Source: a virus
IMG/VR virus record: IMGVR_UViG_3300008996_000043
Coordinates: 1-23,896 of that record
Reading direction: 5' to 3' (one strand)
DNA length: 23,896 nucleotides
Part shown: positions 687 through 23,130 of the stretch, piece by piece
How positions within the stretch are numbered: position 1 is the stretch's first letter
Layout: the number at the start of each line of letters is the position of its first letter
Program-made: the position numbers and the translations under genes
The notes under the pieces: generated by a model
Database searches by the model: none
What the model was told of the DNA's origin: nothing
Seen by the model: only the letters and a program-made list of their open reading frames with translations

Positions 687-3600
687 ATGGCAACATCAAC
701 AAACAGTAAAGTATTTGTATCGCCAGGTGTTTATACTTCAGAGGTTGATTTAAGTTATGTAGCTCAGAGCGTTGGTGTAACGACGTTGGGGATGGTAGGT
801 GAAACCTTAAAGGGACCTGCTTTTGAACCAATATTTATTCGCAACTACGATGAATTCAGAACTTATTTTGGAGGAACATCACCTGAAAAATTTGTAAATA
901 CACAAATTCCTAAATATGAAGCGGCGTATATCGCGAAATCATATTTACAACAATCAAACCAATTATTCGTAACCAGAGTATTAGGACTATCTGGATATGA
1001 TGCTGGTCCATCTTGGACTATTACAACTAAAGCAAATGTTGATCCTTCAACAATTGATTTTAATTGTGTTAGTGCTACAACTATTGATTGTGTTGAACAA
1101 TGTGTTGAAATTGAAACAATTGACTTCTTAATTCCATTTACTGGTTGTAATAATGATATTAATTCAATTATTTTAGACCAAACAGCAATTCCTGCTGAAA
1201 TATTAATGAAATTAAATAGTCAATATGAACAATTTGATGGTTCAACATCTAGTTTATCTTTTGACTTAAAAAGTCAAATTTTTGATGTTATTAATACACC
1301 AAGTAGTGAAGGGGATTCAATTAGTTATTTTGGTGCTATACCTGGAACTATATATTCGGCGATGACTAATTTAGGGTTTACTGCTTCAACAAATGTATAT
1401 GGTGCGGAGTCAGTTGATGCTTCAGTTATTGATTTTTCATCACCTAAAAATGACCCATGGTATTATTCATTATTTGATAATAATGGGAATGCTAGTTATT
1501 CTGGATATTCGTTTTTCTCGGTGGTTGATGGATTAACATTAATTCCGGTAACTACAACAACAACTATCCATACAACAACCACAACCACAACAACTAACCC
1601 TTGTGCTCCAACAGGAACTACGACTACTACAACAACGACTACATTAAAACCAACAGATTGTTATACAGGGAATTTAATGGGTACTATATTCGTTTATTCT
1701 GGTATGGCTTATACTAATTATGATGATTTAGTTATCGCAACATTAAGATCTAGAGGTAATAACGTTGATGGTTCGGGTGCGATTTATGAAGTATCTGGAT
1801 TAACAGATGTATCAATGGTATGTACTGGACAATATTCAGGTGTGTATAAAAACCCATTTGCTAAATTCGCTTTGAATGTTAAAAATATTGATGGAACTAA
1901 TTTCACTTTTGAATCATCATTCATGAATTCAGACACTCAATATATTTCAAAAGTATTTGGAACAACAAATTTCGGTAAAGATAAAAAATCTGTTCCATTA
2001 TTTGTTGAAGAAAATTATCCTGCTTTATTAAATTATGCTTATAAAAAAGGATATATCCGTGGATTAAATTGTGAATTAACAGCTTTACCTGAAGCAAGGG
2101 ATTTAGATTCATCTTCAATTGGTTGGTATCTTGAACAATATCAAACACCATCATCACCATGGGTGGTATCTGAACTACGTGGTAGTAAAGTTTTTGAATT
2201 ATTTAGATTCACAACTATTTCAGATGGTGAAGGAGCTAACACTGAAGTTAAGGTTTCAATCACAAACATTTCATTTGGTAATGGTTCATTTGATGTATTG
2301 GTACGTGATTTCTTTGATACAGATGAAAATCCAGTTGTTTTAGAGAAATTCACAAATTGTAATATGAATCCAAGTGATAATGGTTATATTGCTAAAAAAA
2401 TCGGTACTACTGATGGTGAATATCAATTAAACTCTAAACTTATCATGATTGAGGTTAATGAAAACGCACCAATTGATGCTTTACCTTGTGGTTTTGAAGG
2501 ATATGAAAATAGACAATATGCTGAAGCTAAACCTTCATTCCCAATTTATAAGACTAAATATGATTTCCCTGGTGAAGAAATATTTAACCCTCCTTTTGGG
2601 TTTACAACTGGTGGTGATAACAAAACTATTAGTAATGGTGATAATGTTAAACGTACTTATTTAGGTATTTCTGACAAAATAGGTGTGGATATTAGTATGT
2701 TTACTTATAAAGGAAAACAATCACCATTATCACCTTGTGATACAACTGGTGATGCTTGGTTATATAAAACAAAAGGATTCCATATGGATATCAACGCAGC
2801 ATCAATAACAATTCCTAATGGTTATACAACTAGTGGTGAAAGTGCTTATTACGTTGGTAATGCTGAGTTTACTTCTGATCCAACAGATGAATCAAACCCT
2901 TATTATAGATTATTTGCTCGTAAATTTACTTTACTTGTAGCTGGTGGTTTTGATGGTTGGGATATCTACAGAGAACGTAGAACTAACGAAGATAAATATA
3001 AAATTGGTAGATCTGGTTTCTTAAAAGGATTTAACCCAACTTGTTCGGTTAAATACCCTAACGCGACTGGATGGGGTGCGTTCAAACAAATCACTGTTGG
3101 TGATAATACTCAAGATTGGGGTAATTCAGATTATTACGCATACTTGTTAGGTTATAAAACTTTTGCTAATCCTGAAGCAGTAAACATCAACGTATTTGTA
3201 TCACCAGGTATTGATTATAAATACAATTCTGATTTGGTTGAAGAAGTGGTAGATATGATTGAAAATGATCGTGCGGATTCAATTTATATTACAACAACAC
3301 CAGATTATAATATGTTAACACCTAATGCTGGAACATCTGAATTAATTTACCCTCAAGAAGCGGTTGATGAACTAGAAAATATTGGTCTTGATTCAAATTA
3401 TACTTCAACTTATTATCCGTGGGTATTGACAAAAGATACTGATAACAATACACAACTTTATTTACCACCAACAGCTGAAGTTGTTAGAAATATTGCTTTA
3501 ACTGATAATATTTCATTCCCTTGGTTTGCTGCGGCAGGTTATACTAGAGGTATTGTTAATTCAATTAAAGCTCGTAAAAAGTTAACTCAAGAAGATCGTG

Positions 3601-4013
3601 ATGTATTGTACAATGGTAGAATAAACCCAATTGCTACATTCTCAGATGTTGGTACTGTGATTTGGGGTAATAAAACACTTCAAGTTAAAGATTCTGCACT
3701 AAACAGAATGAACGTTAGAAGATTGTTATTACAAGCTCGTAAATTGATTTCTGCGGTGTCTGTAAGGCTTTTATTCGAACAAAACGATGACAAGGTTAGA
3801 CAAGACTTTTTGAATGCGGTAAATCCAATTTTAGACTCAATTAGACGTGATCGTGGATTATACGATTTCAGAGTTGAGGTATCGTCTGATTCTGCTGATT
3901 TGGATCGTAATCAAATGACTGGGAAGGTGTATATCAAGCCGTCCTCATCGCTTGAATTTATCGATATAACATTCTATATTACTCCATCTGGAGCGTCTTT
4001 TGACAACATCTAA
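687..4013 (+). CDS. Contractile tail sheath protein (gp18-like), enlarged, 1108 aa
   Basis: This is the sheath subunit that polymerises around the tail tube and contracts to drive injection. The N-terminus has the sheath signature VFVSPGVYTSEVDLS followed by a YDEFRTYFGG-type segment (about residues 8-75). The C-terminal 200 residues carry the conserved domain that links neighbouring subunits: PWFAAAGYTRG, then NPIATFSDVGTVIWGNKTL, then NVRRLLLQARKLI, ending in a beta-rich tail. T4 gp18 has about 660 residues; here some 450 extra residues sit mostly between about 120 and 700, presumably surface-exposed. Within them residues 289-325 hold two runs of threonine (up to 9) separated by NPCAPTG and closed by PTDC. 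ATG at 687 puts the SPGVY motif at the usual position. The gene is followed by a strong terminator. Confidence 0.93.
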   Translation: MATSTNSKVFVSPGVYTSEVDLSYVAQSVGVTTLGMVGETLKGPAFEPIFIRNYDEFRTYFGGTSPEKFVNTQIPKYEAAYIAKSYLQQSNQLFVTRVLGLSGYDAGPSWTITTKANVDPSTIDFNCVSATTIDCVEQCVEIETIDFLIPFTGCNNDINSIILDQTAIPAEILMKLNSQYEQFDGSTSSLSFDLKSQIFDVINTPSSEGDSISYFGAIPGTIYSAMTNLGFTASTNVYGAESVDASVIDFSSPKNDPWYYSLFDNNGNASYSGYSFFSVVDGLTLIPVTTTTTIHTTTTTTTTNPCAPTGTTTTTTTTTLKPTDCYTGNLMGTIFVYSGMAYTNYDDLVIATLRSRGNNVDGSGAIYEVSGLTDVSMVCTGQYSGVYKNPFAKFALNVKNIDGTNFTFESSFMNSDTQYISKVFGTTNFGKDKKSVPLFVEENYPALLNYAYKKGYIRGLNCELTALPEARDLDSSSIGWYLEQYQTPSSPWVVSELRGSKVFELFRFTTISDGEGANTEVKVSITNISFGNGSFDVLVRDFFDTDENPVVLEKFTNCNMNPSDNGYIAKKIGTTDGEYQLNSKLIMIEVNENAPIDALPCGFEGYENRQYAEAKPSFPIYKTKYDFPGEEIFNPPFGFTTGGDNKTISNGDNVKRTYLGISDKIGVDISMFTYKGKQSPLSPCDTTGDAWLYKTKGFHMDINAASITIPNGYTTSGESAYYVGNAEFTSDPTDESNPYYRLFARKFTLLVAGGFDGWDIYRERRTNEDKYKIGRSGFLKGFNPTCSVKYPNATGWGAFKQITVGDNTQDWGNSDYYAYLLGYKTFANPEAVNINVFVSPGIDYKYNSDLVEEVVDMIENDRADSIYITTTPDYNMLTPNAGTSELIYPQEAVDELENIGLDSNYTSTYYPWVLTKDTDNNTQLYLPPTAEVVRNIALTDNISFPWFAAAGYTRGIVNSIKARKKLTQEDRDVLYNGRINPIATFSDVGTVIWGNKTLQVKDSALNRMNVRRLLLQARKLISAVSVRLLFEQNDDKVRQDFLNAVNPILDSIRRDRGLYDFRVEVSSDSADLDRNQMTGKVYIKPSSSLEFIDITFYITPSGASFDNI
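1551..1661 (+). repeat. Poly-threonine low-complexity segment inside the sheath gene
   Basis: Codons 289-325 encode Thr blocks of 5, 8 and 9 residues, broken by IH and by NPCAPTG and followed by LKPTDC. The DNA is a mix of ACA, ACT, ACC and ACG codons rather than one repeated triplet, so it is not a simple recent slippage product. It looks like an extended linker between a conserved domain and an inserted surface domain. Flanking cysteines are visible. Confidence 0.85.
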
Positions 4014-4071: not shown

Positions 4072-4078
4072 TATTTAT
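4072..4078 (+). promoter_or_regulatory. TATTTAT element at the start of the HAD gene
   Basis: AAACTATTTATGAATATGG: the motif overlaps the first ATG (4077) and ends 4 nt before the second in-frame ATG (4083). The arrangement terminator, A/T spacer, ACTATTTAT, ATG is the same as before the uvsX-like gene. If the motif is a -10 element the mRNA would have almost no leader. Confidence 0.35.
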
Positions 4079-5042
4079 GAATATGGAGAAGAAAAAAATT
4101 ATTAAAGTGTTAAGAGAATATAGTGAAAATCATAATTTACAATTATATTCATTAGATTGGGATGATAATATTTTAGGTATGCCCACAACTATTAAAATGG
4201 ATAAAAAAGTTGTTGGTAGTAAAGGTAAAGAAAAATGGCAACCTATTGATGTGTCAACTGAAGAATTTGCTATAATTAGATCCAATCCTAACTATAGACC
4301 TAGAAATAATGATTTTCAAGAGGCATTTATTGATTTTACATTACCAGATACATTTTTAAACGATACTAAAAAAGCGATTGAAAAAAATCAATTTTCTCCT
4401 AGTTTTAACGACTTAAAGAAAACATTAATAAACGCAAACCCCTTTGCCATTATAACAGCTAGAGGTCATAGTCCGAAAATCATTAAACAAGGTGTTAAAA
4501 TATTTATAGATATTGTTTTAACCGATGAAGAAAAGGTTGAAATGGTTAAAAATATTAAAAAAGTTTTTGAACGTGAAGGTGATTTAGAAAAAATATATAA
4601 AACAAAACAACTTAATAGTTTTGAACAATTTATTGATGTTTATTTACGAGTTAAAGGGAGGTATTATCCTGTATCGTCAAAAGAATTTGGTGTTAAAGCT
4701 ATGTTAGATTCAAGTAAAGGAGCGTCATCCCCAGAGTATAATAAACAATTAGCTTTAAGGGATTTCGTCTATTACATTTATAATCAAGTTAAGAAATATA
4801 TCGTAGATGGTACGTATAAATCCATCCAAGTTGGTTTTTCCGATGATGATAAGAAAAATGTTGAGGGTATGATTGAATATATTCAAAATGAATTAACCAA
4901 TGAATTTCCTGAAATTGAATTTACAGTTATTGATACTTCTAGTGGTGGTAAAAATAAAATAAAAATAAGTGGTGAAAAACAAGATGAATCAGAATCATTA
5001 CTAGAGAATTTTATTTTTAACAGAATTAAAAAACTACTATAA
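4077..5042 (+). CDS. HAD-superfamily phosphatase-like protein, 321 aa
   Basis: The HAD active-site motifs are visible in order. Motif I is LYSLDWDDNILGMPT, with D27 the expected nucleophile and D29 the acid/base. Motif II is AIITARG, with T127. A late acidic motif, VGFSDDDKKNVEGM, has D256/D257 as Mg2+ ligands. About 90 residues lie between motifs I and II and about 125 between II and the acidic motif, so a cap or helical insertion is likely. The protein should hydrolyse a phosphate ester; the substrate cannot be read from sequence. It stands alone between the sheath terminator and a long non-coding A/T-rich region. The start could be ATG 4077 or 4083 (M-N-M-E-K); the D-W-D motif is included either way. 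A nucleotide or polynucleotide-end phosphatase used in DNA metabolism or host takeover is as likely as a structural role. Confidence 0.75.
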   Translation: MNMEKKKIIKVLREYSENHNLQLYSLDWDDNILGMPTTIKMDKKVVGSKGKEKWQPIDVSTEEFAIIRSNPNYRPRNNDFQEAFIDFTLPDTFLNDTKKAIEKNQFSPSFNDLKKTLINANPFAIITARGHSPKIIKQGVKIFIDIVLTDEEKVEMVKNIKKVFEREGDLEKIYKTKQLNSFEQFIDVYLRVKGRYYPVSSKEFGVKAMLDSSKGASSPEYNKQLALRDFVYYIYNQVKKYIVDGTYKSIQVGFSDDDKKNVEGMIEYIQNELTNEFPEIEFTVIDTSSGGKNKIKISGEKQDESESLLENFIFNRIKKLL

Positions 5043-5144
5043 ACCTTATTTTAACTACCAAACGTTAATTTTAAGACCATATTAGAGTTTAATCCATATG
5101 AATTTATAGCTTTGGATTTATAATCTATTAGAATTGATATTTGT

Positions 5145-5432
5145 AAAAGTCAAATATTTATCATACTAATCCGATAGGAATTCCCCTATTATAATAATAT
5201 ATTAATAATTAATTATAAAATAAATAATATTATAATATATTATTAAATTGGTTATAGAATGGGTTATATTAATATATACTAGTATATATTAATATAATTA
5301 TATATATATATAATATAATTATATATTTATTAAGTAGGTAATTAATTTTGATAAGTCAATAGTTTTAACAATTTTTTCATATAATATTTTATTCAACGAA
5401 ATTAATAAAAATTCATTGATTATTTGACTTTT
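5145..5432. repeat. 12-bp inverted repeat bracketing the A/T-rich region
   Basis: AAAAGTCAAATA at 5145-5156 is the exact reverse complement of TATTTGACTTTT at 5421-5432. The arms enclose 264 bp including the 34-bp palindrome. A partial direct copy (AAGTCAA) lies at 5353-5359. They could be binding sites for one protein in two orientations; chance is not excluded in such A/T-rich DNA, although each arm contains the less A/T-rich GTC. Confidence 0.6.
5264..5297. repeat. Perfect 34-bp palindrome
   Basis: Two 17-base half-sites meet at 5280/5281 without a spacer; the central bases are ATATACTAGTATAT. Every base pairs with its mirror partner. An 18-bp A/T palindrome (5297-5314) and a 12-bp one (5313-5324) follow at once. 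The complete symmetry with a central CTAG makes it more than a simple TA run. It could extrude as a cruciform or bind a dimeric protein. Confidence 0.85.
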
Positions 5433-5462
5433 TTAATTATGTTTTTTGTAAAAAATTAATAT

Positions 5463-6221
5463 ATGGATAATCAGCTATTACAGGCAGCTACGGAGAATTT
5501 TACATTACCCCACGACGTTGTACCTTTACCGTCTGGAGGTAAATTCTATAAATCAAAAAAGAAATCGGTTAAAATTGGGTTTTTAACTGCTACTGACGAA
5601 AATTTATTATTGAATTCAACGAGGAATAATTCTGACAATATCGTTTTAACATTGGTTAGAAATAAGTTGTATGAACATGACTTAAGACCTGAAGAAATGA
5701 TTGAGGGTGATATTCAAACGATACTATTGTATTTACGAAATACATCATTTGGTCCAGAATATAATTTAGTTCTTAGAGACCCTCAAACTGGTAAATCATT
5801 TGATCATACAGAAATTTTAGATGCTATTGACTTCAAAAAAACGGAAGTTCAACCAGATGAAGATGGTTATTTCACAACTATTTTACCTAAATCTGGTTCA
5901 ACGGTGAAATTAAGATTATTGAGTTATGGTGAAGTTGTTGAGTTAGATAAGTTAGCGGAATCATATCCTCAAGGGAGAATTGTTCCAACGATAACTTGGA
6001 AATTAAACAAACAGATTGTATCTATTGATGGTAATGATGATAAAATGGTCATTTCTAAATTCGTTGAATCAATGCCGATTATGGATTCCAAATATATTCG
6101 TGAATTCTTAAATAAAAACCAACCTTCGTTAGATTTAACGAGAAGTGTAATAGCCCCATCAGGAGAAAGAGTAGTGTTTAACATTACTTTTGGGGTTGAG
6201 TTTTTTCGCCCTTTCTTCTAA
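5463..6221 (+). CDS. Baseplate hub/assembly protein, gp26-like, 252 aa
   Basis: The protein reads FTLPHDVVPLPSGGKFY, then VKIGFLTATDENLLL, then an ILLYLRNTSFGPEY segment. This matches the plan of T4 baseplate protein gp26 (family T4_baseplate): an LPSxGxxY start, a beta strand with a T-A-x-E/D-E motif, and a helical region about residues 65-95. T4 gp26 has 208 residues and works in assembly of the baseplate hub. The C-terminal half (about 120-250) is beta-rich. The 0-frame ends at TAA 6219-6221, but the +1 frame continues past it (see the next entry), and a tape-measure-like gene follows, so this may be the first part of a frameshift pair. The start at 5463 follows the 420-bp non-coding region; the leader is A/T-rich without Shine-Dalgarno. 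Confidence 0.7.
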   Translation: MDNQLLQAATENFTLPHDVVPLPSGGKFYKSKKKSVKIGFLTATDENLLLNSTRNNSDNIVLTLVRNKLYEHDLRPEEMIEGDIQTILLYLRNTSFGPEYNLVLRDPQTGKSFDHTEILDAIDFKKTEVQPDEDGYFTTILPKSGSTVKLRLLSYGEVVELDKLAESYPQGRIVPTITWKLNKQIVSIDGNDDKMVISKFVESMPIMDSKYIREFLNKNQPSLDLTRSVIAPSGERVVFNITFGVEFFRPFF

Positions 6222-13810: not shown

Positions 13811-16800
13811 TTCAGAAAATATTTACGTTGATTTTGATTGTGATAACATTACATTGATTGATCCGAATAAAGTGGTGGATAGTCAAGGTAAAGTTAAGGA
13901 ACGATATGTAAAACAAGAAAACTTGGTTATGTATGCTAACCTTGAGTGTCAAGTTATACCTAGGACTAAATTAGTTGTTGGTGCTACCGGACAGAATCAA
14001 GGGGAAGTTATTACTGTTGCTAGCTTAAATTTCCTTAAACCAGGGAATAAAGAAAAGATGGATAACGCGTATACCGATCAAATCACTGGTAAAGGGTCAA
14101 TTAAAGGTAGAGCGACAAATCAAGAAAAGGTTAATCAAGGTGAAAAATACGTTAGTTCGGAAGGGGTTAAAGGGAAGATAGTTGATAATGGTTTATTAGG
14201 TATTACAAGTATTGAATTTTCCGAAGGATTAGACTTTATGCCGGTAATATCAATGGAACTTGTTGATATTCAAGGTAGAAGTATGTTTGAATTGGGAAAT
14301 TCATCACCATACGCCGCGTTTTTTAATTTACCATATCCTCTATTTCATTTGACAATTAAAGGGTACTATGGTAAAGCAATAAAAATACCATTATTATTAC
14401 AAAACTTTTCATCAAGATACGACACTGGTGATGGGAATTTCAAAATTTCATTGAAGTTTTACACTTATAAATATACGATGTTGAGTGAGGTGAACATCGG
14501 TCATATGATGGCTGTTCCCCATATGTATAAATCTAGACTTAAAATTACTACAAAAAAAGGTGGACCTAGTCAATTTTCAAATGTTGATGAAGGGTATGTT
14601 GAATTGGGGTATGAAAAGGTTAAGGAGTTATATAATGAATATAAATCAAAAGGGTTAATTGAAGAAGATTTTCCCGAATTAACGATAATTCAGTTAAAAG
14701 ATAAGATTGATAATTTTGTTAAAGTTATTATGGATACATATACCAAACAAAATGCCAATCCATTAAATGATAAAGAATTATTTAGAAATGATTTAACAAA
14801 TTTTCGTAAATTAATTTATACTGGATTTCCTTCATGGTTTAGGGATAATTTGGATGTTGATAATTTTTTGGTGTTAAAAGATTCTAAAACAAAAGTTTAT
14901 ATCTATAAAAAAGAAATATTGGATTCCGAACAAAAAAAATCTAACGCCAAAAAAGATTTGGATGGGATTATTAAGGAATATAATGAAAAACTACTTAAGA
15001 ATAATACGTTCGGTAAAGATGGAAAATATAGTATTAGTGGGAAGTCAAAATCGTCATCAATACCTAATTCAATAACCAATCAAATTTTTACAAGAACAAT
15101 TAGTGATAATGAAATTGATTATGTTTTAACATATCAACAAGTTAAAAAAACTGGAAAAATCCCTTCAGATGAAGAACTAGGGTTATTTAAGAATGAATTA
15201 AAAAATCGTAAATTATTAAACTTTACGGATATTACATTAGGTGATGGGCAAAAAATAAATAAAGTTGATTATTTTGTATTTGAGGGGGATAGAACATTCA
15301 CTAAATATTTGGATGAAATGGTTAAACTTTATAATGATTATTCAACAAAAATTGATAATGATTTAACGGATTCTTTATTAAGTTTAATTCAATCAAAAAA
15401 CAATGGTTTTGGTTTTGTACCGACCATTCGTAATATTTTAGCGGTTATTTTCGCCAATGGTGAAGCGTTTTTACGATTGATGGACGATGTACATACTAAA
15501 GCGTGGGATGTTCGTGATAATGTTAGTAGAAAAAATGCGATATTAACATCCGAATCAGCAACATCTGGTCAAGACAATATTTCTAGTGGTAATGGAACAA
15601 TCCCAGTTTATCCTTGGCCTGAATACATTATTCAAACGGATGGTGAAGAAGGTCGTGAAAAGTACCAGATTGAATATCCTGGTGATCCGAAATATATCAA
15701 CTCAACAAAGGCGTATGATTATAGTGCTTGGCCAGAAGTGGAGTTCCTTGAAGAATTTATTAAGGGGTTCACACAACGTACCGAACCGCCACAAAGTCCA
15801 ACTGAAGGTCAAAACCAATTAACTGGAATAAATAGAATATCTGTTGACGCAATTGAATTTCCGATAAGTAATAGTGTTTATTCTAACAAGGAGGAAGTTA
15901 AGTTTTTTTATGAAATTTATGAACGTTTGTTTTTACATTCAAACTACCCTTTATTATCCAGAGTTGGTGAAATCGTTAATCAAACAGATAAGATTGTGGA
16001 TTTGTTGGCGGATATGGAAAGTAATAACCTACTTAATAGTTTATCTAATGAAAATCCATTTTTAATCAAGAAGTTAAAACAATATGGTATTAACGCCACA
16101 AATTTCACACCTTTATTAAGACATATATCAAATGGTGGTATTGGTGAAAGTTGGCAGAATTTTATTCGTGGTATATATAATACATCTTATATTAAGAATA
16201 TTACATCAAATGCGGAATTTACATTTGTTGATGAAAATATAATTGATTCGTCTTCGGCAAAACCATTGATAACATTAAAAAATGAAGGTGATTTAACAAA
16301 TTATTTAACAACAAATACAAATGATTTTTCATTGGTTGACTTATACCCATTTACAGATATAAAGTGGGTTAGTGGTAATACCTCCAATGGTAATAAAACA
16401 ACTGTTAATACACAAACATTCAACACAACAAAAACATTGGTGTTTAACACAACAAATAAAGTTATTTCCAATTTTTTACCCACCGATGATAAATCATCAA
16501 AAAAATTATTTACCAATTTTTCAACATTAAACACACAACAACCAAACATTGTTGATAAGATTTCATTGAAAAATTATTATAATAATACAACAAATAGAAC
16601 ACAATTAATAACGGAAGGGAATTTAAGATATGTTAATTATTCTGGTGATGTATTAACAAACCAAACGGTATCAATGTTAAACACCCCATATTTTATTAAC
16701 GCCATTCAAGATGGTGTTAAGAAATTTAGGGAATATAATGACCATCCATATACCTCCGCGGCATACTTGTTCTTAAATTCATTACCATTATCAACATTAA

Positions 16801-22263: not shown

Positions 22264-23130
22264 ATGGCGACGAACAATGTATTAGATGCTGTATTAAACC
22301 AATACGAGCAAGCACAACAAAAAAATTCATCAACTCCTAAATTAAGTCAGGAGGATAGACTAAAGCGTTATTTCGCGGCAGTATTACCAAAAGGTGAAAA
22401 ACAAGGACAACGAAGATTAAGAATCCTACCAACAGAAGATGGATCTTCACCCTTCAAGGAAGCGTGGTTCCACGAAATCTATATTGATGGAAAAACAACA
22501 AAATTCTACGATCCAGACAAAAACGACGGAGAAAGATCACCATTAACAGAAGTATATGATGACTTAAGGGCAACTGGAAAAGAATCTGATAAGAAATTAG
22601 CTGATCAATATAGGACAAGAAAATTTTATGTAGTTAAAGTTATTGATAGAGATAACGAACAAGATGGTCCAAAATTCTGGAGATTCAAACATAACTACAA
22701 AAATGAAGGTGTATTAGATAAAATCATTCCTTTATTCAGATCAAAAGGTGATATCACAAACCCAGAAAATGGTAGAGATATTATCCTTGAACTAGCAATG
22801 GCGAAATCACCAAAAGGAAGTGAATATACTGTTATCCAAACAGTTATGTACGAAGACCCGGCTCCTCTACATGAAGATAAGGAACAAGCAACAACTTGGG
22901 CAACTGATACAACAACATGGAGAGATGTATACTCCAAAAAACCAGTTGAATACCTTGAAGCAATCGCAAGAGGTGAAACTCCAAGATGGGATTCAGCTTT
23001 AGGTAAAATGGTATACGGTGATTCTACAGAAGGTGAAGTAGTAATGGGTGGAACAAAAACTCAAACAACAACTACATCATACGAAGATCCTCAAGCAAAC
23101 GCTGACGTTGATGAAGATTTACCATTCTAA
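22264..23130 (+). CDS. Single-stranded DNA-binding protein, gp32-type, 288 aa
   Basis: Coats single-stranded DNA during replication and recombination. The N-terminus has a short helical lead, then a basic/aromatic OB-fold core: LKRYFAAVLPKGEKQGQRRL, RILPTEDG, AWFHEIYIDGKTTKFYDPDK, RTRKFYVVKVIDRDNEQDGP, KFWRFKHNYK. This follows the order of T4 gp32 (301 residues). The protein has no cysteine at all, so the zinc ligands of T4 gp32 (His-Cys-Cys-Cys) are absent, and a loop rich in D, E and K stands in that place. The Thr/Glu-rich C-terminal tail ends in DVDEDLPF, like the acidic tip of bacterial SSB that recruits partner proteins. The gene stands alone between two terminators with its own sigma70-like promoter, and uvsX follows, as expected for a recombination pair. 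Confidence 0.85.
   Translation: MATNNVLDAVLNQYEQAQQKNSSTPKLSQEDRLKRYFAAVLPKGEKQGQRRLRILPTEDGSSPFKEAWFHEIYIDGKTTKFYDPDKNDGERSPLTEVYDDLRATGKESDKKLADQYRTRKFYVVKVIDRDNEQDGPKFWRFKHNYKNEGVLDKIIPLFRSKGDITNPENGRDIILELAMAKSPKGSEYTVIQTVMYEDPAPLHEDKEQATTWATDTTTWRDVYSKKPVEYLEAIARGETPRWDSALGKMVYGDSTEGEVVMGGTKTQTTTTSYEDPQANADVDEDLPF

Follow-up and report, generated by a model that had tools for sequence, protein, structure and literature searches.

The window, a stretch of 23,896 bases, comes from a T4-like myovirus that is uncultured, and covers part of its genome, with every large gene on the + strand. The genes are arranged in the order sheath, HAD-like gene, an island, hub gene, further baseplate genes and a gp32-like protein. 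The gene upstream of the island contains the motifs DWDDN, TARGH and FSDDD, by which we take it to be HAD-like; a Pfam search with this gene returned zero families above the cut-off. No Rfam family exceeded its gathering score in the window, and no tRNA was found. The genes and island features are listed below, with reference to the two closest relatives, the contigs L004 and L005.

687 to 4013, + strand: tail sheath gene, which opens the syntenic block
4077 to 5042, + strand: HAD-like gene upstream of the island (321 aa), 28% identical to the allele of L004 and L005
5043 to 5163: window-specific left part of the island, unconserved in L004 and L005
5091 to 5096 and 5113 to 5118: arms of a small hairpin in the left part, from the alignment
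5164 to 5462: conserved core of the island, which in L004 and L005 directly follows the HAD stop codon
5246 to 5269: two tandem 12-bp copies, AATTGGTTATAG and AATGGGTTATAT, from the alignment
5264 to 5297: perfect 34-bp palindrome with the centre ACTAGT, within a run of 39 invariant columns
5292 to 5324: second A/T hairpin with arms at 5292 to 5303 and 5313 to 5324, from checked arm sequences and folding
5324 to 5330, + strand: alternative TATTTAT core with no upstream box, not intact in L004
5353 to 5362, + strand: AAGTCAATAG box, the upstream half of the putative tube-type late-promoter element described below, invariant in all three genomes
5385 to 5392, + strand: TATTTTAT, candidate -10-like half, degenerate in the window, from sequence comparison
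5463 to 6221, + strand: T4 gp26-like baseplate hub gene downstream of the island (PF12322, 5.8e-07; phrog_150, 4.3e-11)
22264 to 23130, + strand: gp32-like protein, at the end of the run of baseplate genes

As described in the initial annotation, the 420 bp from 5043 to 5462 are free of genes: no open reading frame of at least 60 amino acids is present. The GC content of the island is 15% compared to 31% for the window. The exact 34-bp palindrome was confirmed, TTATATTAATATATACTAGTATATATTAATATAA being its own reverse complement. It occurs a single time in the window, where the next-longest palindromes measure 18 bp (5297–5314) and 14 bp (two copies), and it is the longest perfect palindrome across approximately 1.6 Mb of fetched loci. 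When the island as a whole was shuffled under Markov models of first to third order, 34 bp were attained in 0 to 1 of 1000 cases, and when its most A/T-rich core alone was shuffled, in 2 to 6 of 1000. Formation by chance is unlikely, although not astronomically so, given the composition. A perfect palindrome of 32 bp, AAATAAACTCATCTAATTAGATGAGTTTATTT, was observed between convergent genes of another relative (L087:2948–2979) and is probably a two-way terminator.

Relatives were gathered by an IMG/VR search with the hub protein, which yielded 80 loci. The hub proteins of L004 (81.8-kb contig) and L005 (13.4-kb contig) are 88–89% identical to that of the window, and among the 80 loci the palindrome is present only in these two. 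Scanning all of IMG/VR for its central 24 bp returned the same two contigs, and neither the palindrome nor the box pattern located the island in IMG/VR beyond L004 and L005. One weak low-complexity match to the island was obtained from the phage collection, and no relative of the hub was found in bacterial genome contigs. According to blastn, homology to L004 and L005 restarts at 5164 and continues into the hub gene. The core is 82–89% identical, compared to 71–74% at third codon positions and 59–73% at fourfold sites of the hub gene. Over the palindrome, 39 alignment columns are invariant, which was reproduced by 7 of 100,000 column shuffles (P about 7e-5). Runs of this length are also found in the adjoining coding genes, and the run is unusual for this spacer, not for the genome. 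Judged by this alignment, the palindrome, which measures 34 bp in L005 and 30 bp in L004, is constrained.

The symmetry that was expected to persist in relatives is thus found in the palindrome and not in the 12-bp inverted repeat said to bracket it. The arms of this repeat, AAAAGTCAAATA and TATTTGACTTTT, exist and were located at 5145–5156 and 5421–5432. However, at least one inverted pair of 12 bp is present in 47% of shuffled islands, the real island holding nine in all. The conserved core does not include the left arm, and in both L004 and L005 the right arm carries mutations. The repeat was rejected as a functional frame because such pairs are common, occurring in about half of the shuffles, and because it is unconserved. 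The two small hairpins annotated at the left edge fared unequally: the one at 5091–5118 lies outside the core, whereas the one at 5174–5189 persists in L005 but has largely disappeared from L004. The tandem 12-bp copies are plainer in L004 (AATGGGTTATTG and AATGGGTTATAT).

The stem of the second hairpin is retained in all three genomes and contains, in L004, one A-T pair compensated to T-A, a single event and as such weak evidence. Together with the local folding of the palindrome and the second hairpin in all three genomes, this pair would suit an element that acts in the transcript, whether an untranslated leader or an A-U hairpin that lies between HAD and hub and serves to stabilise mRNAs or to separate them. 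We regard this explanation as unlikely. The folding energies are ordinary compared to shuffles (z between +1.1 and -1.9), the palindrome never varies in a compensated way and is therefore beyond the reach of covariation, and the island, unlike the other gaps of this phage, has neither a U-run nor a G-C terminator stem. A search for an intrinsic terminator consisting of a G+C-rich stem and a T run found none in the island. A global RNA structure was rejected, as folding of the whole island was no better than that of shuffles.

The initial annotation had further proposed a replication origin with an unwinding element and iterons. Here the A/T-rich core would unwind, the palindrome and the tandem copies would bind an initiator, and a promoter would provide a primer through an R-loop, in the manner of T4 origins, where a promoter-like signal adjoins A/T-rich DNA. 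The island likewise pairs a promoter-like signal with A/T-rich DNA, its A/T content is extreme, the palindrome is conserved, and a single copy is present in the 81.8-kb contig. In contrast to an origin, however, this contig displays no GC-skew switch at the island, the skew tracking the gene strand, and no iterons exist beyond the two 12-bp copies. Moreover, none of the other retrieved relatives has the palindrome, which is confined to one small clade. We therefore consider an origin very unlikely, and this part of the annotation was not upheld.

Comparison of gene order pointed to a different peculiarity of the locus. Approximately 170 related loci (a redundant count) carry the tail-tube gene gp19 between the HAD-like gene and the hub gene. 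It encodes 162 aa and is present in practically every relative whose sequence covers HAD to hub; among such loci it is absent only in the three island genomes. In the window, L004 and L005, the only island genomes known, the island takes the place of the tube gene, and the HAD allele next to it is one of two. The cultured Flavobacterium phage vB_FspM_immuto has the block of sheath, tube and hub in the same order around the site, but with the tube gene present and ordinary short spacers, unlike the island genomes, which lack tube at this position. In L006, the next closest relative (hub 72%), an unrelated gene precedes the hub and there is no palindrome; the contig starts there. Neither tblastn nor HMM searches detected a tube gene in the window or in the L004 (81.8 kb), L005 (13.4 kb) and L006 contigs, and a relocated tube was rejected for these sequences. 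The same arrangement on three separate contigs makes it unlikely that one assembly error is to blame.

Several side observations were made in the relatives. The tube-hub spacer is a hot spot of insertions (L105:2354–3386, L112:4404–6075, L161, L163, L186 and L194), and the inserts of L105 and L112 read like homing-endonuclease genes; L125 and L148 carry an insert between HAD and tube. In the tube-hub spacers of L164, L166, L171, L201, L203 and L213 a small open reading frame with a zinc-finger-like pattern (TCxxCGK...HxxxH) directly follows the tube terminator. On the L004 contig (G001, reversed, 14160–16017) two adjoining open reading frames consist of TTLPDNLTVGG-type repeats.

A recombination scar or small mobile insert could also account for the missing gene, the tube region having been lost by exchange or homing-endonuclease traffic that left A/T-rich filler behind. 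The HAD allele of the window is unlike that of L004 and L005, yet the core is common to all three, which places a putative recombination junction near 5164; the insertions seen in the tube-hub or HAD-tube spacers of other relatives, some resembling homing-endonuclease genes, point in the same direction. Filler would hardly exceed synonymous sites in conservation or contain 39 invariant columns in a row, however, and neither terminal repeats nor other copies were found, which renders this scenario improbable.

The HAD-tube spacers of the relatives contain a bipartite element, which was defined in this analysis: the box AAGT(A/C)AA(T/G)AG is followed by TATTTAT 26–31 nt from the box start and, 36–50 nt further on, by the ATG. 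Examples among L010–L231 are L098:3808–3986 and L150:3820–3980. In 85 dereplicated tube spacers the box was present 60 times compared to 0.26 expected in shuffles, and most of the 85 contain both box and TATTTAT. CTAG is enriched sevenfold (98 versus 13.7) and often lies 27–41 nt upstream of the box, in about half of the spacers. Sixteen whole contigs (68–323 kb) carry the full pattern either once (10/16) or not at all (6/16), and those matches that could be placed fell into the tube spacer. Among the family loci, counted redundantly, 172 of 175 strict matches precede tube; the other three represent one locus, the L005 island, before hub. The AAGTCAATAG(T/C)TTT form of the islands, with a spacing of 30–37, also precedes tube in L221 and L223, sheath in L252 and, as a variant, a neck-like gene in L263. 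Like the islands, L221 and L223 have AAGTCAATAGTTTT, here before the tube gene, and a short way upstream of their box lie two A/T palindromes of 24 bp each; L252 has AAGTCAATAGTTTT before sheath. The pattern AAGTCAATAGNTTT...TATTTAT matched 66 viral contigs, most of them unrelated.

Two observations lead us to regard the tube-spacer element as a candidate late promoter: its placement with respect to the start codon, and the TATTTATA cores that stand before many further genes of this phage and of immuto. In the window such cores were observed at 643, 20078 and 21268, approximately 25–45 nt before several gene starts. No description of the element was found in the open-licence literature. It resembles the gp55-dependent T4-type late promoter (TATAAATA) in that late structural genes of the relatives are preceded, at a distance of about 40 nt, by a short A/T core, and phage immuto has similar TATTTATA cores before tube and hub. 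It differs in its core, which is TATTTATA when read along the gene strand, and in the -35-like box, AAGTAAATAG, that the tube form adds. To our knowledge, T4 late promoters have no such box. T4 middle promoters do carry a box, the MotA box, upstream of a -10-like core. The tube-type element shares this arrangement but differs in box sequence and spacing, and it precedes late structural genes.

The island shares part of this element. All three island genomes contain a match to AAGT(A/C)AA(T/G)AG in the form of the AAGTCAATAG box, which arises by chance in 0.1–0.2% of shuffled islands; its presence in three related islands is one observation plus conservation. The -10-like half is TATTTATT in L005 and TATTTCTT in L004, so that the TATTTAT core is intact only in L005, compared to TATTTTAT in the window and TATTTCT in L004. 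The core starts at +32 (window), +33 (L004) and +34 (L005) instead of 26–31 nt, the distance to the hub ATG is 78 nt instead of 36–50 nt, and ACTAGT lies 68–74 nt upstream of the box instead of 27–41 nt. In a position-weight model trained on 29 main-group spacers, all three islands scored no better than shuffles. On these grounds a strict tube promoter was rejected, the box alone being significant and the core not. Sigma-70 promoters were likewise rejected, since promoter-like sites in the island are fewer than in shuffles. Immediately before the hub start, a six-codon open reading frame, MFFVK(N/Y) (window 5439–5456), is shared in frame by the window, L004 and L005; it could be due to chance or be part of a signal.

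Among the three readings offered at the outset, an origin, a recombination or packaging site, and a leader or control of transcription, the last is best supported, in that the island carries AAGTCAATAG, albeit without a strict promoter match. Its sequence suggests that the island works like a tube spacer or descends from one, outside the strict definition. Our preferred explanation, to which we assign a probability of about 0.5, is that the island is a remodelled tube-type late-control region that now stands before the hub gene. The relatives run from sheath and HAD-like gene through a spacer that bears the putative tube-type late promoter to tube, terminator and hub. From the altered synteny, the conserved palindrome and the box we infer that the tube gene, along with its terminator, was lost from the site in the island clade, and that the ancestral spacer, lengthened by A/T-rich palindromic DNA, came to adjoin the hub gene directly. 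Transcription of hub would then start at a late promoter composed of AAGTCAATAG at 5353 and, at 5385, a weak core resembling TATTTAT, with a predicted leader of approximately 60–70 nt. The palindrome would be DNA upstream of this promoter, plausibly serving as a symmetric protein-binding site or as an extruded hairpin or cruciform, which might keep the region open or separate it from HAD transcription. Such rewiring is supported by the higher conservation of the island compared to synonymous sites and by the enrichment of CTAG in tube spacers together with the ACTAGT centre of the palindrome.

In type, the island would be a variant of intergenic late-control regions, which are of a known kind; its phage group is represented chiefly by metagenomes. 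A further proposition is that a tube-specific element occurring about once per genome in a large uncultured T4-like group was split from its gene in one clade and joined to a long, conserved A/T palindrome. It is rather doubtful; if true, the element or the palindrome would do more in cis than serve tube expression, such as acting as a coupling site for replication or late transcription, and an essential tail gene would have been relocated or replaced. With remodelling of a late-control region as the preferred explanation, what was a vague A/T-rich island can be put to the test as an instance of promoter rewiring within a large uncultured phage group. Furthermore, a candidate for a tail-tube-specific bipartite promoter has been described for this group, and a clade is flagged in which the tail-tube gene is missing at its conserved place.
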